Shown in pieces: positions 42,328 through 59,304 of a stretch of DNA of 64,000 nt. The stretch is taken from NCBI GenBank assembly GCA_030141605.1, contig JAQGDQ010000265.1:30001-94000 (forward strand), given 5' to 3'. The DNA comes from Tubiluchus corallicola. Taxonomy: Eukaryota > Priapulida > Priapulimorpha > Priapulimorphida > Tubiluchidae. The translations under genes were made by a program, and so were the position numbers. Every line of letters begins with the position of its first letter. The stretch's first letter is position 1. The notes under the pieces are model-generated. The model was not told where the DNA came from. It did no database searches and saw nothing but the letters and a program-made list of their open reading frames with translations.

Positions 42328-45300
42328 CATCAATCAAACATCTGCTAAGAAGCTTCTCGCTGAACTGCTGAAGCAGTTTAACTTAATAAATACAATTGAC
42401 AAATTACCACAGCAGAATAATGAGGAAAAAACACCGGATCAAGGTATGCCAACATAGTTCTTCAGTTTGCTGCTTATAACATTCTGTGTTAAAAAAGAAC
42501 TTGTCATCCTTAGTTGAATTTGCCACTCAGTCTTCAGATTTCCATACATCTTCTGTCAGTGTGGTAAATACTTATGGACAGTATGGCAGAAGAAATCACC
42601 CAGAACTGATATTGAACCCATTGATCTCATATCCATTCACTGCCTAGACTCCATTCACAATTACTACTACACTGTAAAAATTTAAAATCAGTGGTTGTGT
42701 AGTTCATGTGGTGCATGTATTGCAATAGAAATATGTATTGAATGCCACTGCATCAGAACACGTATAAAATTCTACCAGAGTGATCTGATTAGGGTGGGGA
42801 TATCTATTGACATTATTCATACATTGCTGAAGTTTCATAAGTTGTAATATTGGAAAATATAATATTGACCAAATATTGCTGTGATAAAGCAGCTTGATTT
42901 GAAAGCTTTGAGAGTATGGCTGGTATTGTGTAAGCTTACTTAGGAAGTAGGAACTTCTTTAGATGTTTTGAAGTTACTTGGGACATGTCATGCATAATAA
43001 TGCACTCCCTTAACACCTGAAAATGAGTTATGGCAACTCCATTTCATCTCCTAATTTATAGAAGTTTGTTAAATTTTGTAGGTCGTTGTTTGGATGTGCG
43101 TGTTGAAAGTCACGGTCAGTTAGTTGAGCAACCCATCTCTTGCAGCACCTCTGAAATGCACGAAGAACCCAAAATTGATGTGAATAATAAGAAACTTGAT
43201 GTGCATAATGTAGTTGGTGAAGTGGAGCAATGTGAACAACCAAGTTGTAGCAAAATGCTTCAGGATAGCTCAGTTAGTAGGAGTCGTAAGCGCAAGGCAG
43301 ATGACGATGGATTTGGTAAATTGTTCAGTGAACCTGAATGAATTGGCCTTTTTGTTTTACGTTGATCAAATCTAAGTCTTTGGTTAGTTCAGCGTTCAAA
43401 CAGGTATTGACTGGGTCCTTACGCTGTGTGAACAGTCACTTTAAACATTTCTGTAGCTATCAAACAAAAGTTCATATTAAAAACTATCAAAAACAACAGC
43501 TACAAAGCATACATAGAGTGCTTTTATCATTACCATAAATTTTTTTACAAAATGTTTTTCACTTATTGGGTTATTTGTATACAGCTTGTGATGTCAAATG
43601 ATGCCTCCATGTCTATTTCAAAACCATAATGAATAGCAAATGACAGTGCTTCATTAACCAGCTAATGTAGCACTCCATCAGAGTAGTATGTACATATTTT
43701 CAGGCACTGCAGCATGAATTTGTTCGTTTTGTTAACAATTTGACTCAAATTGGTACTGTTTGTGTGGTGTAATAAAGATGTAAATTAGTGTTTCTTATTT
43801 ATCATAGTACCATTATGAATTACTTGATCACACTTGGTCTTATGGAAACTGATTATAGTCCATTTTACATGGCTATTTATCATTTCAGGTACAATATATC
43901 GAGATCAAAATTTTATTTGTTCAAATTACCAATTAAAACAAACTGTTCGAGGGGGTGATAATGAAGAAAACAAACTTAGACATGCTAGTGATGTAAAAGT
44001 AGTGGAATTGTATAACAATGAGGATGCATTGAAAGAAGAAAAACAGTCTAGCAGAGATCGGCCATATTCTGTTTTTAGAACTGCTGGAGAACAATTGGTG
44101 AGAGCAACTGCTTTAGTATGACTTCCAACTGCAAATTTTTGGGGTACTTGCTTGTGATGTGATTCTTATAAACAGATTTTTATTACCATGAAGTCGGCCT
44201 CGTTTTTACTGTAATTCGTTTTACCATTTACCCATTGTGAAGCGAACGATGCATATTTTAAATTTTCACAAAAAATTTAGCTCTGTGACACATGTAACAT
44301 TGTATCTGTTAATAGTTAGTTTATTAACATCATTTCGGGAGCAGAAAACAAAGTTTACATAGAATATTCGTGCATTATTGGTGATTGGCGTGTTTTGTCA
44401 TTTGTGGCCGAAAAAATCTCAGTAAATTAGTAACCCAATGCATAGCATTCTGAACTAGTTAATTTGTTTCATTTCTTGTATTGCCCTCTACTATTTGTTT
44501 CTTTTGGATGAGTTTATATACGTATCTGAATGGCTCTTCAGCTTTTTAGCCAATAGCAGAGAACTGTTTTCGTTCTCTGTGGAACCTGTTCTTTGCCGGC
44601 ATTAAGCACGTTCGAGCGAAAATGTTTTGTGTTTCGTTTGTCATTAGACTAATCTTAAAGAACTAGGCTCGGAACTGTCATGCTTACGATGAAAACAAAA
44701 CGAGCTAATTAACAGAAATCATCAACAGCTTTTTGGCTACCATTTTTTAGTGTGCACATCGATTTATATGTGTGCACAATTTTAAACAAATAACGAACAA
44801 ATGACCCTGCGAAAAATGAGGAAAGGAGGCTGATAGTATTTATTTTGATCAACAAAAGTTAACAGATTGAAGTTGAATGACCATGAGACATCATGGCAGA
44901 ACATTTGGCAGTGTGTCAGCACTCTATGTTGGAAACGAATTTTAGACTAATTGAAGTGCAAGTGTTGAAAATTTATGTTTACGACACTCGTAAGTAATGT
45001 ACTGTTTCACTTGTGTGTGCTTTGTATTGTAGAACTCACATAATCAGAAAAAGGAAAGATCATGCACATCAGGTAGCCCTGGGCTGACTAAACAATATCT
45101 TTATGGAGGCAACTCAAAATCACTTGGGACTAGGTATTTATATAAATGCAAATGTCAAAGAACTGCACCAGCACCATTGACTCGCAGGCTAGATAATATA
45201 TACACATTGTTGCATCATCAAGTATTTGATTATACCGGTAGATGTCGACTTACAGACGTCGGTTTACGACCTATGCGACTTGTGACTTTACGAACCACCC

Positions 45301-48300
45301 GCAACTTGATTAATTATACAAATTAGACTATAACTCGTATATTTCTTTCTATTTTTTTAAATAAACTAACTTTCAGTTGGTATCTGTTTGGCAAATTAAA
45401 CGTAGGCGCCACCAAATTTTGTGAGTACATCAACACACAACATCTTCCGTGTAGTGCACCGCTAGAATATACGGGTCTGACCTGCGTCCAATTCGTCTTA
45501 CGGCCAGTCCGCTGGTCTCGACTGTAATTGTAAGATGACGACTACCTGTACTGCCTGACTGACCAAAATTTGCAAGTAAGGGGCAGAATCATGAGCTTAC
45601 TACTGTTGAGTTCCAAACCTAATAATAAACTTGGAATTTCAATGATTGGTTGTAAAAACATTTGCAAACAATTTTACTTAATCGTGAAGCTTTTGAAGAA
45701 AATTTCTGGAAAATTATAGTATCAAATGTAAACGATAAATGTATTAAAAGACGAGAATCACAGATCAATATTTCAGAAACCTAAAGGTAGCCATTTTCAA
45801 GAATATTTTCAAGTTTAAAGCTTAATGTGAGTCAAGGCTATAATGGATTGAATAACTTTTCTTGATCATTGTTGTTAAGTTCAGTTAACTTATCTTGTTT
45901 CAGGCGAGGATTTGTTCCTCCAGTCAATCGATTGGAAAATGACAGGTATGAAACTTGCTTCAAAATTGTCTACAGTTTTCTTGAGAAGCGTGTTTTTTTT
46001 TGCATGGGAGCCTATGAAATAAGACTTATTCGTTGAGCAATGTGCAAGTAGTGTTTTAGTGGGTTTTCTTTAATTAAGTCAACACAAGAATATTTGAAAT
46101 AGTATTTTGACGTCATTAAATTTCATTTTACATTTTGTTTCTCTGCATGCTAGGCACTTTGGTAAAATACTAGGTTTGTAAGTACATAACTATATTTTTA
46201 ACATATAGTCTATACCAGTAATTATTATAAATCACTTTGCTAAATTGATTAGGTTTTAGGCTCTAAATGGTTTCATAAGTAAACTAATCTGTTTACTAAG
46301 CTAACCAAACAGTTTGCTATCATGTTATTACCATAGAAAGAATACCATACATACATTGCCATTCACTACATACGTTTTGAGATGTAAATGAAACATCACA
46401 ACAGTAGCAGTTCTAAATACTGGTGCAAAAAGTGATACATAACCGTGCCAATTACTTGTACTACAATTGGTTTAATGATTATCAATGAAATTTGATGCTT
46501 GAAAAGTGTTCAGATTTCTAAAGCAGAACCTGTAGCAACAGAACTGCTGCACAGAATGCGTGTCTAGGAATTTGCTCATGTATTTGTAAAAAAAAACACT
46601 GCACAGAAGATTTCTTAGTCATTCGTCCTCATAAAAGATTTTGGTGAAGAGCTGTATTTGTTAGTCATTTTCCAATTGCCAAAACAAATCCAGCTGAAGT
46701 TACAAGTCACAACACCTGTAAACACCTGTTATAAAACACCTGTAACACATTATTGCTTAAGTCATTTAGCTAGACAAATTGCTAGAAAAAAGGCATTGCT
46801 GCATTAACTTATAATATATATGGTAAATATTATTGACAGATTTTTGTGATACCTTTTGGCAACTTAGCATAAATAGCTATAAACAATAATGAAACTTAAC
46901 CATGGGATTCGTGCCTCTGCATTATTGGATTTAACAGTAAAGTGGCATTGTATATCCATAGTTCAACACCGCTGTGTTTCAGTTTTTATTTGGTTATCTA
47001 GAAATGGTTGCATGCTGGTTCGAGACAAACACGAAATAGGAGATGGAGGGAATGAAGAACAGGAATTTGATGAGCGTCTCAAAAATATTGAACCGAAGAT
47101 GATTAGCCGCATACAAGCTGAGGTAGGATTCATCATGCTGGTTTCCTAATAATTGGGTTTGGTGGATTCAAGTGTACCTGTAGATGAGCATATGGTGTTT
47201 TAGTTGTTTTTCTTTCAGTCAACATTTAATAACATCTTTGCATCAAACTGAAGATCAAAAATAACATTTCCACATCATTAAATTTCTTTCGCCATTTATT
47301 TTCTATGCATGCTAGAAAAGCATTCAGATGTATTGCAAGAAGTCTGCAACCTTCGGTGCCAGTTCTCTAGAATTTGCAAAGAACCATAATGGAAAACAAC
47401 AGACATCAGATTTGAGTACATTGTTTTTTCTGTTATTTATTTATGCAACTAACCAAATGAATCTATTGTATTACAATAATTCGAAATAAATTATGTGTAT
47501 AATAAACACAGATACCCAAGCATACATGCAGATGCACATAGGAAACACCAAGTACTGATGCATGAACATGAACACAACTTATGGACCTCCAATTTTCCAT
47601 TTCAAAATTGACCAAATTCTGTTTCAAGGCATGCTCGTCACAGAAATTAAAAGCTGCATGGTCCTATAACTAGAATTTATCATCAATTTATGTAACGTGT
47701 GACAGATTATAAATAAAAAAATAAATTCTTATATGAATTAGCTATGTAGTCTATCAGGCATTTGCGTTTGGCTTTGCAGGACATAAGAACGTCAATATTT
47801 AATTTGCACGTTAACAATATCTCATCATATTTGTATCATCGGGAAATTTCCTGGCTCTTCCCAAGCACACACACACACACATCAACATCACGAGACTGTG
47901 CAGATCGTTTTACTTTTTTGGCTGAACATCACTGGCATCGACCATTTTAAAAGTTGGACTAAACATCCAACATTTCTTGTGTCAAAAAGAGAGTGAAAGG
48001 ACGTAGTGGGTGTGCAAGTTGCATAAAAAACTCCAGGATGAACTTCTAACAAGGTCGAGAAAGGCTGAAAAACTGCTTTGTTTTGCTGAAAAGTAACTAT
48101 TGAAGTAAATTTCCTTTCTAGCACGCGTTGAATTTACGGAAAAGTCCGAAATCAGGCCAATTCCATTTTTCATAGCTATTTTGATCTCACGTGCCCATTT
48201 CCGTGAATTCCGTACATTTTGAATGATTGCGGAAAATCTGAGGCCCTAAACTTAGTGTAGTTCTAATTCTTGTAAATGTATTGGGCTGTTGGCTAAACAT

Positions 48301-51300
48301 CATTGATTCATTGAAACTAATTACGCAACTTTATGGGAGTTATTTTTAATAACATTGTTTTTACTACTAGTGAGAGGCATTCTTGATTTTAAAATTCTGT
48401 ACAATTCTTTGTACTAGCAAAAAACGGTTCTCTAAAACATGCCACTACAGTTGCTATGTAGCACATGTCCAAAATGACTCGCCTAAAACATGGATGTAAA
48501 AGTGTCATCTGAATGTCCAATTGCATTGATTTGTTTGCTCTTTGAAATAAGTATACATCGTGTAAATCGTTCTGCATCTTTTTCTGCTCAAATGTTGTGC
48601 TCTGTTTAAAAGCTTAACTCTTCCATTCAGTTTCCTAACAGTTTCCAATCAAATTGTGCAATATTTTGGCATTTTTCAGTAAGAGCATTAGCATGAAGTA
48701 AATATAAAATTATGTTTGTTACATGCACTTTTGGTAGAACATTTTAAGTGCATCTTTCAACTTGCAGCTTAATTCCATCCTTGGGATATAAAAATCCACC
48801 AAGTTTCATTTTACTCATATCAATGTGTGTATCACTGCATGTAACAAATTTGTACTTTCTCAGTATGTATGCCATGCACATTTTTGCTTCCATTAGTGCA
48901 AATCGGAAACCGATGCAGTTTCGAGGACCCACACCAAATGGTACAAATGTACACGGAGAAATTTTATGCCTTTCTTCTGGGGACCACCTATTAGGATTAA
49001 AAGTGTGTGGATTGGGCCAGTACTCTTCGTCATGGTGGAGTGAGTACACTGGTACAGCAATACTCACACCTTTGGGGAAGTCATACCCGGCCATGTGGAA
49101 ATCCGCTGATGCAACCCTCTCTATTCTGAGAGCAGGTGGATACATCCTTAGAGTTTCATTTGTAACCATATCCAGTACTTCAAGCTGATTTACGTTGTTA
49201 TAATTAATTTCTCCATCACCAATAATATTTTCTATTTCATCATGAACTTTTTCTTGCCATTCTGGATGTACTGCCATGCAGTATGCTAGCCATGCGAGCA
49301 ACGTTCCCGTTGTTTCGTATCCTGCTAGAAAAAATATCACTGCATTGGCCAGTATTTGGTCATCTGTCAAACCTTTTTTCGCAATATCCTCATTTTCAAT
49401 TTCTTTGTGAACATCTAGCATCAGTTGTAAAAAGTCTGGGCGATATTCTTTCTGATTTCTGCGCATTTCCAGAACACGCTTTGTAGATTCATGAAAGAAC
49501 TTGAACGGCTCCGTTGGGAAGAATGAAATCCTGGAAACCTTCGCAATGAAGAATGAAAGGGCCGGAAAAAAGATGAAGATCAGCATATTTATGCTAAACA
49601 GGGAGAAATCAAATGCTTTTTTGGCATGCCGAACAAATGGATTATCAGGATCATCCTGAGAGTTTAGTTGCAAGCCAAACATGGTACTGGCAATAACATC
49701 TAAGGAATAAGAACCGAAAATTGACTTAGCTTCGAATGTTTCCTTTTCGTCTGCTAGTTTGCCAAAGTTAGTGAGCGTAACAGATGAACATTGTGCAATT
49801 AACGGAGCCATCTGTTTGAGCCTCGCTGCAGTAAAAGTGGGTGACAATAAAGAGCGGGCTTCTTTCCACTTTTGTCCCGAAGCATTTGAAAGTGCTTCTT
49901 TGATTATTTTTGTCTCGTCGTTAAATAGCTCTTTGAGTTTCTCGTCTTGTCTGTTAATAAACAAGTCATGAGCTTGTTTGATAAAAACTTGTTTTATGAG
50001 CTCTGGTTCAGCGACCATCAATTTTGGATGACGACCAATGAATGCCCCATACAGCCTGCCATACTTTTTACCCCATTCTTCGTCGATCCTGTGCAAGTTT
50101 TTCCTCATGAATGGCAAGAAATTGCCCACCAATGGATATGGTTTGGGACCATCAATGCCAAGGTCTTTCCAGAAGTTAAGATGCCATTTTGAATACAGGT
50201 AGATCAGAGTCAAAATGATGATTAACAGCAGAAGCCAATCTGATACGTAATAGCCTAGTGCATACATGTCTTTTTCAGGTTTAGCAATCCTTTTGCTTTA
50301 CATGCGTTTTCGGCTGATCTGAAAAACGATACGATATGTACACAAATCGGCTAATGAATAGTTTATTAAAAACATGCTGTTAAATATTATCATAGAACTA
50401 CATTGCTGAATATTATAGTGTGCACCCTGTTCATCTTATCATCTGAGAATTCCTTCCGGTTAGTCTCCTGACTGTAATGCAGGAATGGATAGCAATAAAA
50501 GTAAATATCTTCATTACGTTGTGCAAAATGTTTTTTGTGACACAATTATAGATTTCCATCCAGTGCTCTATTAATACATTAAGGAGTTGTTTCTTTTGCT
50601 GAAAATAGTCAAATCTTTTTTCACATCTAATTGTGAAAACTATAAATATTGTGAATACCCAATTATGGAAATAAAAGCAGTAAATAAGTAATCAAATTAA
50701 GATAATTAAAAGTAGTCATTTCTTTTACTGGAAATAGTCATATTTTCTACATACCTTTTTCTGATCATGGAAACTACAATAATTATGGAAAACTTTTTCT
50801 TTTTTCGATACATATTGTGCTACCTTATAAATATGAGTTGTTTTTATCAGCAAATAAGTAGTGTCTGTCATTTCTACATTGTTCATAGTGAAATTATATC
50901 TAAAAAAACATTTTACTGTTGCCATCTGTTAGTGAAATAAACTCACTGCCATGTGCTTGTCTCATTTTTCATTGCGGATTGTAAAAAAAAACTATTAAGA
51001 TAATTAATAACTCTAGGTTCTATGAAATTTCAGCAGCTGTTTAATGAATCTAATTTTGTTTCACTGAAATCACGGATAAGCAGGAAAACAAAGGTCAGCA
51101 GGTGCTTTTGAAATCATCAAATTCATTGCCATTGTGTTCTTAAATTGATCACATGATAAAGAAATGAATATTATATGTGCAGTTAGTTCATATCTATTTA
51201 TCTTCACCAATTAGCTGCAGAACAGGGGCGGAACTAGGGGGGGAGGGGAAGGGGCGCGCTACCGTCCATTGCACACATAGCAAGTGGACAAACAATTTTT

Positions 51301-54300
51301 TTTGCAGTAGCCCAGTAATATTTTTTATCATTAAAGTTTGTCACCGAGTTAAATTATTCTGACTGTTAATATGTGCCTGACCAGATGTGTTTACCTGAAA
51401 GTCAGGATGTAGTTAATTTGTTTGCATGTAATCTATTCAGGAGGCAGGCAGGAACAGTTAACAAAGCAGCTCGTTTAGTAGCATTAGCGTCTTTGCACAA
51501 AAGACTGTTAGTTAACAAAACGGCTCAGTTAGCACTCGAGCTTCATTCAGCAGTGTGTTATAATAGTGAACAAGTGAAATAATAGAGCGAAAACAATGCA
51601 AACATTGAAGTTATGTTGAGCTACCCTAGTACCAGAGAGTCAGTTTGTCCAGCTCGCCTAGTATCAGAGAGTCAGTTTGTCCAGCTAGCCTAGTACCAGA
51701 GAGTCGGTTTGGGAGATACAAATTGATGAGCCACAGCTCAGCCACCTCGTGATTGGACATTACCGACTCTTTGCTACTCCTTAGCGACTCTTTCCCACGA
51801 GTTTGCTGCATAAAAGGGCGTGATTTTTGAGCAGATTTCATCATTTTTCTCCTGCTAGTAGAATCTCTGCTAGTTTTCGCTGCGATTTCAGCTGTTGTTT
51901 CATCTTGTTGACAAACAGGAATTTTCACGTGATTACATGTTACATCATGTCTGGGAATAGGGAAGACGACAAAGTTGTACCACCTAGAAAACGGCAGAAA
52001 ACTTTAGACTTTTTTATCCAAGGAGGAAGTAAAAAGGAATCAGCATGTAAAGATGCAGAAGACGAGAAACAACCGGAGTCTTCTACTCAGAACATAAGAG
52101 CAAATGACTTGGGGCCTGTGTCTGAGAAACCACGGCAACCACACATGACGAAATATCCGAAAACTGGCCAAGGAAAGAATGCTCGTTCTTTTGAGTATAG
52201 TTGGTTCGGGAAACACTCATGGCTGGAGTACTCAAAGCAGACAGACGCAGCATTTTGTTTTGCATGCAGGCATTTTGGTAAACAAAGACAGATTACTTGG
52301 ACTGAAGTCGGATTTAAAAAATGGAAAGATGCAATGCATGATAGGCAAAAGCACGAAGAGACGGAATCACACAAGGACAGCATGTCAATGTGGGCCGTCT
52401 TCAAAAGCAGTAGCAAAACAGGTGACGTTCAAAAACGGATGGAACTTGCGTGCGCAAAACAGGATGAGGAAAAAAGACAGTACGTACGCAGAATTATAGC
52501 TACTGTAGAACTGTGCGCAAAACAGTGTCTTCCCCTGCGTGGTCACATCGAAACAGAAGTCAGCTCGGCCAAAGGAAATTTTCTTGAACTGCTCGCATAT
52601 CTGAAAAAGTTTGATCCATTTCTGCAAACTTACACTCCACCAAAGAATGCCACGTATGCGAGTGGGAAAATTCAAAACGAGGTCTTAGATATCATGTCTC
52701 ATGAAATTCTGTCAGAAGTGGTTCAAAGAGTGAAGAAGTCGGGGTGTTATGCAATCATGGCAGATGAAGCAAGAGATGGAAGGAGAGAATTGCTAGCACT
52801 GTGTGTGAGATTTCTCAATGTTGACAATGGTAATGTAGAGGAACATTTAGTAGGTTTTGACAGGTTAGAAGCGTTTGATGCCAATTCAATCACGCAGCAT
52901 ATCATGAAGTGCCTTGATAAACTGAAGATTGACGTGGCTACGTGTGTGGCACAGAGTTACGATGGCGCTAGTGTGATGAGTGGCACTGACGGCGGCGTTC
53001 AAGCCAAATTCAGAGAAACTAATGAGGCTGCGGTGTATGTCCACTGTTGCGGACATCAACTCAACTTGGTCATCAGACACACGTGCGAATGTGTTCCGGA
53101 GGTCAAAGACTTCTTCAGTACAATGGAAAATGTATACACATTCTTCAAAAAGTCACTAGTCTGCCACGGAATGTTGGAAGAAGTTAAAAGAGAACTGGGA
53201 TTGTCAGGCGTCGGCGAATTAACACAGATATCAGAAACAAGGTGGGCGTGTCAAATCAGAGCATGCAAAGCAATGAAGAAGAACTACAAGGCGGTAGTTC
53301 AATGTTTGGAAGGAATTGATGAGCCCGTTGCAGTTGGGTTGCTACAAAAACTGACCCGAAAAAAGTTTGTGTACTGTTTGTTTCTTTTTGAGATGCTACT
53401 CGGTACATGTGAAGTGTTGCACAAATTCCTCCAAACAACGGACATCGATTTACTTCAGGCTGAAACGTACAAAAATGACGTGTGCGAGGAGTTGAGATCA
53501 TTGCGTGACGTTGACAAATCAAACGAACTGGTGGCCAATGTCGAAGCTTTTGTCAGTGACCTTGATGTCGAACTAACCACTGATCGCAAACGGCAGAATA
53601 AACCGAGGAGTGGCTTACACGATTTTTTTGTCACTGCAAACATTGGATTTGCAAATAGCGTCTTGGGTGATAATGTAGACCTTCATCGAAACATCATGCT
53701 GCCATGTGTCGATAGAATTGTAGCAGAAATCGAGGCGCGATTTTGTTCACTTGATCCTGAAATTCTCCGTGGAGTATCAGCACTTCACCCAACATCTGAA
53801 AATTTCTTGAGTATTGAGGATCTGACAAGTTTTGCTGAACACTACAATATTCAGACTGACATGCTAAAAACAGAGACTGTGATGGCCAAAAGAGTACTTG
53901 GTCGAGTTGAGGAACCAACAATATTATCCCTTTGGAAGGTGCTCGACGGTGATTTGTTTCCCATTCTAAAACGTGTTCTTCAGATTGGAGTCACTATTCC
54001 AGTCACTAGCTGCTCATGTGAACGGTGTTTCAGTGTTTTGCGAAGGTTGCATTCGTGGCTCCGTCGAACAATGAGGGAGGAACGGTTAAATCATTTGGCA
54101 GTCATTCACATTGAGCGAGATGTGTACGATGAGTGTGTGTCGGAAAACAAAGTCATCGACACGTTTTTAGCAAAAGACCTGCGACGTTAAAATTATGACA
54201 CATACTTAAACTTGACATAATAATGTAATATTTCCTGCTTATTATTTTCTTAAAATTTGTGTATGATAAATTTTTGTAAATAACAATTTAGTAAATAATT

Positions 54301-57300
54301 TTTGTAAATGACATAAAAATTAAACTTAACACAATAATATAATATTTCCTGCGTATTATTTTCTTAAAATTTGTGTATGATAAATTTACCGTTAGGTTAA
54401 CTGAGAGGCCTGCATGCAGTATAAAAGGGGTTAAAAATTGGCTTAACGACTGGGGATACCTCGCCCCCCCCCAGAAAATTTTTGCGCCCCCCCCCCTGCT
54501 TGCCACATCTAGTTCCGCCCCTGCTGCAGAATGTTAGTCACGTTTATTTATGCGACCAGTGTTTCTAATGGAGCGTTCAGACTAGCGAGTTTTCTTGTCA
54601 AGTTAACTCGCCAAGTAACGTGCAAGCATGTTCAGTCTAGAGAGCAAAACTTGCTGCGAGCTACTCTCCGATAGTAAGCGCGAGCTGACACTCACTTCTC
54701 TATTCATTGCGAGAAGAGTTGAGAGTAACTCGCCGAGGCGTTAACACTAGACAGCACCTCGCAACAACTATCGGACAGTTTGCAATAACTTGTCGGCAGT
54801 AATCGCAGAGTATTTCACACTTGTGAGTTTGCTGTCAGAGAGAAACTCATAACAGATAACTCGCTGGTCTGAACGCGCCACTCAGACTATTTAGCTTCTG
54901 ACTAATTACTGTAAATTGCCTAAGTGATTAACTCGTTACAATAGTTAAAAATGTTGCTATTCTAGTTCTAAACAAGTTGTACGGCCTGTACTGTCTCGTA
55001 AGGTCACTTACCTGGATTGATGCTCATTAGCCTCTATTCTCTCTATGCATGCTAACGTTACAAAGCAATTTACACTCTACTGCTTCCTCGCTGGCTGTCT
55101 TTGACATTCAAAATGTGGCTATGTTGGCCATGCAATACAATAAATGCACGCTTGTACACTTAAACATTTCGTATTGTGAACTTTGCACATTCTCTGCTTT
55201 GCGCAACTCTCACACACTTATTTTCAAGCCCACCAAACTCTGCTAGATTTTCAAGGACACATTGCAGTAGCTGCATGCAATATTTATTCTCTATGCATTT
55301 CCTGCTTGCTACGTGTACTAAAGTTGCAAAGCAGACATGGCTCAGTTAGAAAGTGTAAACTATTAAATAGGCGTCTATTTATTTTTTGTAATTTGTATGA
55401 AGTATTATAATAGTATATGTCTGTCCATTTCTGCGTATTCATATAGCATTTTAGCTGCTTGAAATACAACTGATAATAAAAAAAGATTAAGATTAATGTG
55501 TGCTTTACAATTGGCAAATTAAAAACTGTATTATTGTAAAATACTGTTTGGCCTCTACCACACTATTGTAGAATGTCCTAATAGAGGTTATTTCATGCCC
55601 TCTTTAACAGCTCTTTGATTGAATGAATTTGAATAATAATTTAAGAAGGCAACTCAATACAGAATCAAAAAATAATAATTAATTTTCTTTGAAACAATCC
55701 TTTTTGTTGTTATTATATTTGTGTGTATAAAACGCTTGTGTGCTGTGAAAGTAATGTTTTATTTGTAGCAATATAGTCATTATTAATAGAAAGAGATTTA
55801 TTCTTTCTTCAACACACTACCAAAGGAAATTTATTGAAATCTGTGTTAAACCCTGTAGGCAATTCAGTTCTAAAGATGCAGAAAACAAGTCTAGGTGCAG
55901 GGCCTGATACAAGTTAGTCTGGTACCAGTATAGTAAATGACAGAGTTATATTCTTTAAACATTACTTAATTGTTGCAATAAATTGATTAATTAGTTTTAA
56001 TTAAACTACATGTATGTGCATTTGTTTTGTTAGATTATGGACCATAATGCTTCTGTATGTTGGGATGACATTGCAGGGTTGGAATTCGCAAAGAAAACAA
56101 TTAAAGAGATTGTTATTTGGCCAATGCTACGTCCGTAAGTCTTAATGTAATGTATGTAATGTTGTTACATTTATCATTAAAATTAATTCTGCTACAAACA
56201 AAAATTATTGAACATTTTATCAATCATTTCCTAATGGAATTTGCCCTCATTATTGAAATCAAACTTGTTGAAATGAGCTTTCATTTTTTTACCACACCAT
56301 TAAATTACAAGTCACTTCTATGACCACTAAACCACTCGGCTCCGAAATTGCATCATTAATCAGCAAGCTTGAGTTAATTTTTTACTAGATAGCCATTTTT
56401 CATTTAATTTCATATTATATGGTGCACCCATGGCATATAACAATCACGTAAAATAATATGATTAAAATCACAAGTTCATTATATGTATATGGTAGTTTAA
56501 GTAAGAACAAAGTAAAATTTTCATCATTGTGTAGCTAAAACATAAGAGGATTAGTTGTGTGAAAATGGGAAGTGCCACAATAACATAAGTTATCTTTAAT
56601 CTAATCAGTAATTATTATTTTTGCAGAGATATATTCACTGGACTTAGAGGACCACCAAAAGGTTTATTATTGTTTGGACCACCAGGAACTGGAAAAACAT
56701 TAATCGGTAAATGTCCTTTTATTTTAAACAATCATTTGGCCATGTTAATGTATGTAAGGTGATTTAAAACACGTGTTAAAATACAATGCTTTTTCTCTAT
56801 AGAACTGGCATTTTATGATAGCCTGAACAGTGTTTAAAATATATTCATCGTTTGATGACACTACTGAGTATAATTCCGAACGAACATACTGTAGTCTTCC
56901 GTTCAATATAAGGTATTTTGTATATGTATGTATATATATGTATATATATTGATAATTCTTACCTTATTTCAGGCAAATGCATAGCTAGTCAGTCCAAGTC
57001 CACATTTTTCAGTATAAGCGCAGCTTCTCTTACTTCGAAATGGGTATGTCGAGCAGACTGAACTGTTTATATATACATGTAATACACATTTGCATTGCTA
57101 TGCAGTACTTATGTCATATTATATTCCACAGTACTAACACTTTATTACATTGCTGTGAGGCAGTAGATCAACAAGTTTAAAATACATTTTTCCTTTGTTT
57201 TGTTATAATTTACATGAGTTATTTCATTCACTAAATGTCTTTAAAAGGCTAGGAAATAACAGCAGCTATCAAGCATTTCCTATCAGTACCTGGTGGTTTG

Positions 57301-59304
57301 TTCATGAGTATATTGTCTCTCTTATTAAACAAATTACAACTACATTCTTTAAATGATTATTTTTCTGACAGTAGTATTTGCTCAGACACATTTTGTGCAT
57401 TGACATGTAGATAGGTGATGGAGAAAAAATGGTGAGAGCATTGTTTTCCTTCGCCCGCTGCTGCCAACCTGCCGTCATATTCATAGATGAAATTGATGCT
57501 TTGTTATCACAGCGCAGTGATACAGAGCACGAATCTTCTCGGCGGATGAAGACCGAGTTCTTGGTTCAGTTAGATGGAGCCACAACTTCTGATGATGATA
57601 GATTGTTAGTTATTGGAGCCACTAACAGGTGTGTACAATCTTACTTCTCCCACTAGAATTTTGAAAAGTTTACAGTGCATGTTTTGCTCACCACGACTTT
57701 TGCATCATTGCTCACTTCACACGCATACTATTTTTTCTTTCTCTGTCTGTCTCTTTCTCTCTCTGTTCTCTGACTTTCTCTCCCCCTCTCTCTCTCGCTC
57801 GCTCTGTCTGTCTGTATGAAATCTACCATTAAAACTATCAGCATCTAATTTCAAGGCAGTATTTTTGCCATTGTTAATGTCATGCTATTCAAAGCTTTCC
57901 CATGGAAAGAACATCTCAGGCGGAAATGAATTTTCGAAAAACAAATGCCTAGTGGCCATCCTCCAGGGCACAGTAATCAAAACAATGGAACACTCTGCTG
58001 GGCATGCCATATATCTTGAGATCTAGTGTCGGCACATACATATGTGCCTTTTGCTTTGTTACTATTAGATGGTCTGTCTAGCAAGGGTGAATGCTTTTAA
58101 TAAGATATGTGATTTTCTCAGACCTCATGAACTGGATGAAGCAGCAAGGCGGCGGCTCGTCAAGAGGCTTTACATCCCTCTGCCAGAGAAAGTTGCCAGA
58201 GCTCAGATAATGAAAAACTTGATGAAGCAGCAAGCTCACAGTTTGACTGAAGATGAGTTTAACTTTCTGGCAGAAAAAACACAAGGTAACACACGTCTCT
58301 GGCGCATTTCTAATTTTAAAAATAACTTTTACACATGTGCGTGTGGCCACATGGTTGAGATGTTTGGACTGCAGTGCAGCAGTCCATGTGTACCCATTTC
58401 AAATGCTGCTTGTATACCTTAAGCCCCAGAACCACCCTTATTTTTTTAATAAGTTTCCACATTGGAAAAGGGAATTCATTTTTTATTGGATTACCATTGA
58501 ACCCATAAATTCTCCAAGTTGAGTAGTATTCCTATTTAGGCCTTGTAGTATTCATGTAATTTCTCTTTTATTGCAGGTTATTCAGGAGCTGACATGGCTT
58601 GCCTATGTCGAGAAGCAGCTTTAGGACCAATTAGATGCATCAAGGATATTGAAAACATTTCAGTCAATGAGGTAACCGGTTGGTTTTGTTAGAGTTGAAT
58701 GTGTGCCCAGTTTTTATGCTCAGTTGAATGTGTAAGTCGAAGCTCGTTATATAGCAACTCTGTAATGCATAATGCCAGCTTTTTGTCTCGTTCCGATTTT
58801 TGTAACCAACAGGAATTCAAAATATTGGAAATACTGTCACTTACAGCTGATGTGTTAGTTACGTGAAAATTCAACTCGCTTTTCTTATTATAAACCATCC
58901 TTACTAAAGTCAATTATTGTTGCAAAAGCAATGACTCTAGTATCAAAACAAGAACCTTTAAAAATTAAGAGGCTGATTACTGTGTAATTAAATATTTAAT
59001 GCCTGTAGTTGAGCTTGGAAACAGAATTTTTGTCATAGAAAAAAGCTGGTGCTTATCAACATGTGAAATATTACATAGTCAGCTTTGAGGAGATTGCATC
59101 TGTGTTTTGTTCTAGTTATTAATACAGTTTGTTTAACACTATACAATGCATTGTCAGACTAATCATTTTGCTATTACACAGGTTCGGTCAATTAACAAAC
59201 AAGACTTTCTCGATAGCATTGAACAAGTCCGACCTAGCATATCCCAAGAAGACCTGGACATATACGTGAAGTGGAATCAAAAGTTTGGGAGTTGTCAAAT
59301 GTGA
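42328..59304 (+). CDS. FIGNL1: Fidgetin-like protein 1, AAA ATPase (5' exon not found)
   Basis: Exons: 42328-42443, 43082-43315, 43889-44097, 45033-45133, 45904-45945, 47002-47122, 56034-56134, 56627-56706, 56973-57043, 57411-57628, 58122-58285, 58577-58671, 59182-59304. All join in phase, giving 557 aa. About 65-100 N-terminal residues are missing compared with human (674 aa). FIGNL1 is a meiotic AAA ATPase of the fidgetin/katanin group that acts on RAD51 filaments in homologous recombination. The FxxA RAD51-binding motif is FRTA (VFRTAGEQL), followed by RGFVPPV and [11 protein letters not shown]. The ATPase core has Walker A GPPGTGKT, Walker [23 protein letters not shown], sensor GATNR, arginine-finger region [16 protein letters not shown] and [20 protein letters not shown]. 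It ends with [21 protein letters not shown]. The intron between 47122 and 56034 hosts an antisense P450 and a hAT transposon. Confidence 0.95.
45235..45548. mobile_element. TA-flanked MITE (copy 2, same family as 13.9 kb)
   Basis: The left end ccggtagatgtcgacttaca and the right end, reverse-complemented, caggtagtcgtcatcttaca match at 15 of 20 bases. TA lies outside both ends (45233-45234, 45549-45550). It is 314 bp, non-coding, in a FIGNL1 intron. TIR and TA duplication suggest a Tc1/mariner-pogo derivative. Confidence 0.7.
48744..50267 (-). CDS. Cytochrome P450, clan 3-like, intronless, nested in a FIGNL1 intron
   Basis: One open frame of 507 aa, the usual microsomal P450 length. An N-terminal membrane anchor (about 9-27, [16 protein letters not shown]) is followed by the proline-rich hinge GPKPYPLVG. 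The I-helix oxygen-binding motif is AGYETT (315-320). The K-helix ExxR is ETLR (371-374). NPNRW is the PERF-region motif, and [10 protein letters not shown] carries the heme-ligand Cys451. All catalytic landmarks are present, so the enzyme should be active as an ER haem-thiolate monooxygenase. Sequence flavour resembles CYP3A/CYP6/thromboxane-synthase-type clan 3. The substrate cannot be inferred. It lies antisense inside a host intron and has no introns itself, unlike most split genes nearby. Exact family assignment would need phylogeny. Confidence 0.95.
   Translation of the reverse strand: MYALGYYVSDWLLLLIIILTLIYLYSKWHLNFWKDLGIDGPKPYPLVGNFLPFMRKNLHRIDEEWGKKYGRLYGAFIGRHPKLMVAEPELIKQVFIKQAHDLFINRQDEKLKELFNDETKIIKEALSNASGQKWKEARSLLSPTFTAARLKQMAPLIAQCSSVTLTNFGKLADEKETFEAKSIFGSYSLDVIASTMFGLQLNSQDDPDNPFVRHAKKAFDFSLFSINMLIFIFFPALSFFIAKVSRISFFPTEPFKFFHESTKRVLEMRRNQKEYRPDFLQLMLDVHKEIENEDIAKKGLTDDQILANAVIFFLAGYETTGTLLAWLAYCMAVHPEWQEKVHDEIENIIGDGEINYNNVNQLEVLDMVTNETLRMYPPALRIERVASADFHMAGYDFPKGVSIAVPVYSLHHDEEYWPNPHTFNPNRWSPEERHKISPCTFVPFGVGPRNCIGFRFALMEAKMCMAYILRKYKFVTCSDTHIDMSKMKLGGFLYPKDGIKLQVERCT
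51619..51714. repeat. Three 32-bp tandem repeats in the hAT 5' region
   Basis: Units 51619-51650, 51651-51682 and 51683-51714 each contain cctagtaccagagagtcagt with minor changes. They lie between the left end of the transposon and the transposase start, where subterminal transposase-binding repeats are often found (inference). Confidence 0.9.
51947..54190 (+). CDS. hAT transposase (TTF-type zinc finger plus dimerisation domain)
   Basis: The frame is 747 aa from the ATG at 51947 (MSGNREDDK); an in-frame ATG at 51827 would add 40 residues unlike any domain. A basic N-terminus ([12 protein letters not shown]) precedes a TTF/BED-like zinc finger region with CFACRHFG. The RNase-H-like core has blocks typical of the ZMYM/DUF4371 group of hAT proteins: [48 protein letters not shown] and SETRWACQ. 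The C-terminal hAT dimerisation block includes [20 protein letters not shown] and [10 protein letters not shown]. The Asp in MADEARD and the Asp in YDGAS are candidate catalytic residues. No stops or frameshifts, so a functional enzyme is possible. Domesticated relatives exist, but the terminal repeats and target duplication argue for a mobile copy. Confidence 0.93.
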   Translation: MSGNREDDKVVPPRKRQKTLDFFIQGGSKKESACKDAEDEKQPESSTQNIRANDLGPVSEKPRQPHMTKYPKTGQGKNARSFEYSWFGKHSWLEYSKQTDAAFCFACRHFGKQRQITWTEVGFKKWKDAMHDRQKHEETESHKDSMSMWAVFKSSSKTGDVQKRMELACAKQDEEKRQYVRRIIATVELCAKQCLPLRGHIETEVSSAKGNFLELLAYLKKFDPFLQTYTPPKNATYASGKIQNEVLDIMSHEILSEVVQRVKKSGCYAIMADEARDGRRELLALCVRFLNVDNGNVEEHLVGFDRLEAFDANSITQHIMKCLDKLKIDVATCVAQSYDGASVMSGTDGGVQAKFRETNEAAVYVHCCGHQLNLVIRHTCECVPEVKDFFSTMENVYTFFKKSLVCHGMLEEVKRELGLSGVGELTQISETRWACQIRACKAMKKNYKAVVQCLEGIDEPVAVGLLQKLTRKKFVYCLFLFEMLLGTCEVLHKFLQTTDIDLLQAETYKNDVCEELRSLRDVDKSNELVANVEAFVSDLDVELTTDRKRQNKPRSGLHDFFVTANIGFANSVLGDNVDLHRNIMLPCVDRIVAEIEARFCSLDPEILRGVSALHPTSENFLSIEDLTSFAEHYNIQTDMLKTETVMAKRVLGRVEEPTILSLWKVLDGDLFPILKRVLQIGVTIPVTSCSCERCFSVLRRLHSWLRRTMREERLNHLAVIHIERDVYDECVSENKVIDTFLAKDLRR
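54206..54387. repeat. Direct repeat pair in the hAT 3' region
   Basis: About 67 bp at 54206-54273 recurs at 54321-54387 with a few substitutions (shared aatatttcctgc and attttcttaaaatttgtgta). It lies just after the transposase stop. Confidence 0.85.
54569..54880. mobile_element. MITE with GCGTTCAGAC inverted ends
   Basis: The left end, tggagcgttcagactagcga, and the right end, reverse-complemented, tggcgcgttcagaccagcga, match at 18 of 20 bases. The element is 312 bp, non-coding, GC-richer than its flanks, with internal variants of the AACTCGC motif. It sits only 46 bp past the hAT element. No clear target duplication; superfamily uncertain. Confidence 0.7.
57731..57816. repeat. CT-rich microsatellite in a FIGNL1 intron
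   Basis: A polypyrimidine tract of TCTC and TGTC units on the plus strand, downstream of the exon ending at 57628. Confidence 0.85.

Follow-up and report, generated by a model that had tools for sequence, protein, structure and literature searches.

The 64,000-nucleotide stretch of Tubiluchus corallicola DNA analyzed here (the window) almost certainly contains a complete, autonomous-type hAT transposon of a DUF4371 lineage (probably Tip) that entered an intron of the DNA-repair gene FIGNL1 fairly recently, in the sense direction. The element is an ordinary but well-preserved hAT of a well-known superfamily, and this reading relies on (i) its termini and target-site duplication, (ii) an uninterrupted transposase frame with recognizable domains, and (iii) related copies elsewhere in the genome, several of them with duplications of their own.

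Termini and extent of the element

51223-54523, + strand: complete hAT element, 3,301 bp, delimited by terminal inverted repeats, target-site duplication and comparison with other copies
51215-51222, no strand: 5' target-site duplication, CTGCAGAA
54524-54531, no strand: 3' target-site duplication, CTGCAGAA
51223-51237, + strand: 5' terminal inverted repeat, CAGGGGCGGAACTAG
54509-54523, + strand: 3' terminal inverted repeat, CTAGTTCCGCCCCTG
54206-54387, + strand: 3' non-coding tandem repeat with a period of 114 bp (54206-54273 resembles 54320-54387)

The terminal inverted repeats (TIRs) match at 15 of 15 positions and the flanking target-site duplications (TSDs) at 8 of 8, so that the perfect 15-bp repeat and the identical 8-bp duplications claimed in the initial annotation hold to the base. 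Termini and TSD together lie far beyond chance, because five copies with the same ends, and one lacking the 3' terminus, display TSDs of their own. The TSDs at the seven loci comprise CTGCAGAA in the window, ATAGTTGG at C1449, TAGGTCAC at C390, and CCTGTTAT, CACGTTTG, GGCCCTAC and CAAAGATT at the remaining four. The element is richer in G+C than the window as a whole (42% vs 35%). Two units of the 114-bp-period repeat are found in the window element, C1449, C1820 and C611, and apparently one unit in C390, C1641 and C51.

A central TA in the TSD is a trait of Buster-type hATs. In the seven TSDs the central TA is absent, and GT occupies positions 4-5 in four of them. The target preference of the Tip group has been stated to be uninvestigated (PMC3942097).

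Architecture of the transposase

51947-54190, + strand: transposase ORF, 747 aa, single exon (open reading frame, Pfam domains, Hermes match)
52478-52987, + strand: DUF4371 (RNase H-like) domain, aa 178-347 (Pfam PF14291, E=1.9e-15)
53882-54121, + strand: hAT C-terminal dimerization region, aa 646-725 (Pfam PF05699, E=1.8e-11)

The ORF runs from ATG to TAA without breaks, as had been claimed for the 747-codon frame, and both Pfam domains, DUF4371 and Dimer_Tnp_hAT, exceed the cut-off, the PF05699 match scoring 44.1 bits against a cut-off of 21.4. Hermes is the sole solved relative found by sequence; the match is weak (E=0.0027), and the alignment, correctly placed, spans the CxxH, TRW and ERxFS motifs, with E692 of the transposase facing the ERxFS glutamate of Hermes. 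When the window protein is aligned with two transposase-like frames from this genome that are 26-29% identical to it, D273, D339, C367, H370 and R432 are invariant, and E692 is retained in one relative and replaced by K in the other. D273 and D339 in the DUF4371 domain and E692 in the dimerization region are candidate catalytic residues. A single-sequence structure prediction of the transposase (pLDDT 35.8) was discarded.

Genomic context in FIGNL1

43889-44097, + strand: FIGNL1 exon with FRTAGEQL, an FxxA-type RAD51-binding motif (ag before, gtgaga after the exon)
45904-45945, + strand: FIGNL1 exon with FVPP, 42 bp, the last found before the element (ttcag before, gtatga after)
48744-50297, - strand: intact cytochrome P450 gene lacking introns, nested antisense in the FIGNL1 intron that also holds the element
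55859-55912, + strand: likely FIGNL1 exon (GAGPDTS), the first found after the element (tgtag before, gttagt after)
56034-59301, + strand: FIGNL1 AAA-ATPase exons (WDDIAGLE, Walker A/B)

The location in FIGNL1, in sense, given by the initial annotation agrees with the AAA-ATPase exons downstream of the element and the FxxA-type and FVPP exons upstream. In human FIGNL1, RAD51 is bound by an FxxA motif. The FRTAGEQL and FVPP exons, both flanked by consensus AG/GT splice sites, are assigned by motif to the N-terminal half of FIGNL1. Downstream, the exon at 58069-58422 finds its best match in the solved human FIGNL1 structures (3d8b/8r64), above spastin and VPS4. The intron holding the element extends from 45946 to 55858, about 9.9 kb; the hAT insertion is thus intronic and disrupts no exon. 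The description of an essential-type host gene suits the locus, but the coding exons are all unhit.

Two neighbors share this intron. The P450 gene has a paralogue (C1915), 56% identical and likewise a single long open frame, so that it looks like a member of a single-exon subfamily and not a fresh retrocopy. Immediately 3' of the hAT element, positions 54563-54880 belong to a separate repeat family, whose members, at more than 1,000 candidate genomic sites, are 77-87% alike, some of them arrayed in tandem.

Copies elsewhere in the genome and age of the insertion

The genome search scores the best candidates only, and the copy counts are accordingly lower bounds. Among these candidates the transposase core occurs in only four distinct near-full-length loci, together with fragments: (i) the window copy, the only one found with an uninterrupted full-length frame and both ends; (ii) C1449, 98.2% identical over 3,248 bp and carrying in-frame stops; (iii) C390, 97.6% identical, with an open frame; and (iv) C1813, an older copy broken many times and carrying stops. 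The search for copies more than 98% identical, proposed with the initial annotation, thus returns one, C1449. C2290 is the C390 locus again (100% over 6,077 bp), one locus on two contigs. The C390 frame reaches 783 codons because a 54-bp unit of the dimerization region is triplicated in frame.

The C390 copy (C390:5827-8989) is without its 3' end, including the inverted repeat, and its TSD TAGGTCAC directly abuts the shortened element on both sides. It is inserted in a high-copy repeat: once its flanks are joined with one TSD and without the element, the junction is spanned by matches of 90-98% at 40 or more other sites. That the terminal repeat is missing precisely as far as the TSD looks like incomplete repair after excision; abortive gap repair is a known process of this type.

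Many additional copies carry internal deletions or are MITE-like relatives. Perfect 8-bp TSDs of their own were found at C1449, C390, C1820, C51, C611 and C1525, and the last four, which retain both ends, were therefore moved in trans. Five equal-scoring MITE-like copies were considered as evidence that MITEs are active now, and this reading was set aside: the three examined are 100% identical over 660-940 bp (C2212:285950-286900, C2197:388750-389700 and C2100:372320-372980), including sequence outside the homologous part, so that contigs that are redundant, or that were duplicated very recently, fit the trio equally well. No relatives were found in viral contigs, searched with the transposase protein and by alignment.

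Computed outside the G-rich ends, the differences from the window copy amount to 1.33% for C1449, 1.48% for C390, 1.78% for C1820 and 1.85% for the C51 deletion copy. Taken together, the copies make up a burst whose members lie 1.3-2.5% apart, the window copy and C1449 being the closest independent pair, and no copy more than 98.7% identical to the window element was found among the best candidates of the genome search. The youth claimed for the element is borne out in that, judged by these distances, the copies represent a recent burst, yet the window element is not an insertion of yesterday. The pattern of ends, TSDs and copies also shows past mobility of the family.

Selection on the frame and present mobility

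With C1813 as outgroup to polarize private changes, the window copy carries eight private derived codon changes (Q83E, M133R, Y169C, F301L, Y368C, K497T and two silent), and C1449 and C390 have four in common. The resulting 6:2 ratio of nonsynonymous to synonymous changes compares with about 6.3:1.7 expected without selection, the site numbers standing at about 3.7:1. The six replaced residues are all common to every other comparable copy, and Y368C alters a residue within the CxxH motif where the relatives examined have F or Y. Against older copies (C1525, C51, C1338, C5) dN/dS is 0.16-0.34, and the family has therefore been under purifying selection through transposition; against young copies dN/dS is 0.46-0.76. 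Older branches thus display selection for function and the last branch none, as is usual for a transposon copy once it has inserted and opposite to what domestication would leave. The window copy may accordingly now evolve as a neutral passenger, a reading that stays suggestive because eight changes are few.

The youth of the insertion explains the open frame, and openness is not proof that the enzyme works; we consider it possible but doubtful that the window copy still encodes a working enzyme. Somewhat less likely still is that the element is mobile in the population now, with active transposase supplied by the window copy and a polymorphic insertion in FIGNL1. All parts are intact, the frame is the sole uninterrupted full-length one found with both ends, and copies are few and young; on the other hand, no copy was found above 98.7% identity, the private changes are neutral in ratio and strike residues common to the other comparable copies, and the flank is single-copy, with no second haplotype in the assembly. 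No empty allele of the FIGNL1 site was found in the assembly, the joined-flank query recovering just the two halves at the locus, and an empty site is unobtainable there because the 623-bp left flank is single-copy; this joined-flank query covered C2237 and C1449. Of the proposal that the element is possibly active, the presence of all parts stands, but the neutral ratio and the failure to find a daughter copy above 99% identity count against it.

A recent arrival of the family by horizontal transfer, in place of inheritance, would agree with the few full-length copies and the one young burst, and Tip-group elements have been reported to transfer between Drosophila species (PMC3942097). We nevertheless hold it improbable: older relatives of the same family are already present (C1813, C5, C1338 and C51, dS 0.06-0.12), as are many diverged MITE-like relatives (84-89%), and this therefore fits a resident family re-amplifying. 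That the window ORF is instead a domesticated host gene, maintained by selection at the FIGNL1 site, can practically be dismissed: in its favor, the 747-codon frame is open while C1449 and C1813 have stops, but the TIRs and TSD are intact, near-identical mobile copies with their own TSDs lie elsewhere, and the private changes are at the neutral ratio.

Putative PCNA docking

In two of ten related loci inspected over 1.2 kb around the N-terminus, C1143 and C2326, the upstream frame, at the N-terminus of a DUF4371 hAT transposase, opens with MSRQSNLTSFF, a canonical PCNA-binding PIP-box sequence (Qxx[ILM]xxFF) right after the start codon; these were the only two hits, and they count once because they are close relatives of each other. 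At residues 16-24 the window transposase reads RQKTLDFFI, which misses the canonical box by one position: in Q17-K-T-L20-D-F-F23-I24 the last residue is I and would have to be F or Y, and a fully canonical PIP-box in the window element was therefore rejected in favor of a near match. The stretch is conserved in C390, C1449, C1843, C1813, C51 and C5; in C1338/C1677 it is changed. The pogo transposase has a PIP-box and binds PCNA, and the hAT element Ac has a putative PIP-box of unclear function (review, PMC5371812). That DUF4371-type hAT transposases dock on the replication clamp PCNA via an N-terminal PIP-box is, on these motifs, a long shot; if true, the insertion or excision of hAT elements would be coupled to replication, a link that has been proposed for other transposases that bind the clamp.

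Proposed mechanism and significance

By analogy with the hAT family, the transposase would pair both 15-bp ends and cut with D273, D339 and E692, leaving hairpins on the flanks, and the element ends would then be joined to a staggered 8-bp target. Internally deleted derivatives retaining both ends show, by their pattern, movement in trans. The value of the locus lies in a clean specimen of a DUF4371-type hAT with a small sibling set, in which the TSDs of the siblings, the deletion derivatives and the one end-less copy record the movement of the family in the genome. Few hAT elements of animals are active, and those that are serve as useful genetic tools. The importance of the element would be greater if it were active, given this scarcity, or if the PIP-box lead were confirmed.

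Comparison with known hAT elements

The element combines an 8-bp TSD, a TIR within the 10-25 bp of the hAT superfamily (15 bp), a length within its 2.5-5 kb (3,301 bp), and a C-terminal dimerization region, and together with DUF4371 these sustain the hAT identity assigned by the initial annotation; its claim of completeness is matched by both TIRs, the TSD and the uninterrupted 747-aa frame. The hAT superfamily, in which Hermes is the nearest solved transposase, shares the TSD, the TIR, the length, the hAT dimerization region and the CxxH, RW and ERxFS motifs, whereas the window transposase has an N-terminal Cys/His-rich region and DUF4371 where Hermes has a BED finger.

With its PF14291 (DUF4371) match the element probably belongs to the Tip group. 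BuT2, a Tip-group element, has DUF4371 (PMC3942097) and resembles the window element in its DUF4371 and hATC domains, 8-bp TSD and MITE-like deletion derivatives; it differs in a five-exon, 643-aa gene and a 12-bp TIR, compared with the single-exon, 747-aa ORF and 15-bp TIR here. The architecture described for DUF4371 proteins comprises a TTF zinc finger, an RNase H-like domain and hAT dimerization (PMC3985635). The window protein follows the same order, with an N-terminal Cys/His-rich region, then DUF4371, then the hAT dimerization domain, and departs from it solely in that the TTF zinc finger was not detected by the domain model, the Cys/His residues being seen by eye.
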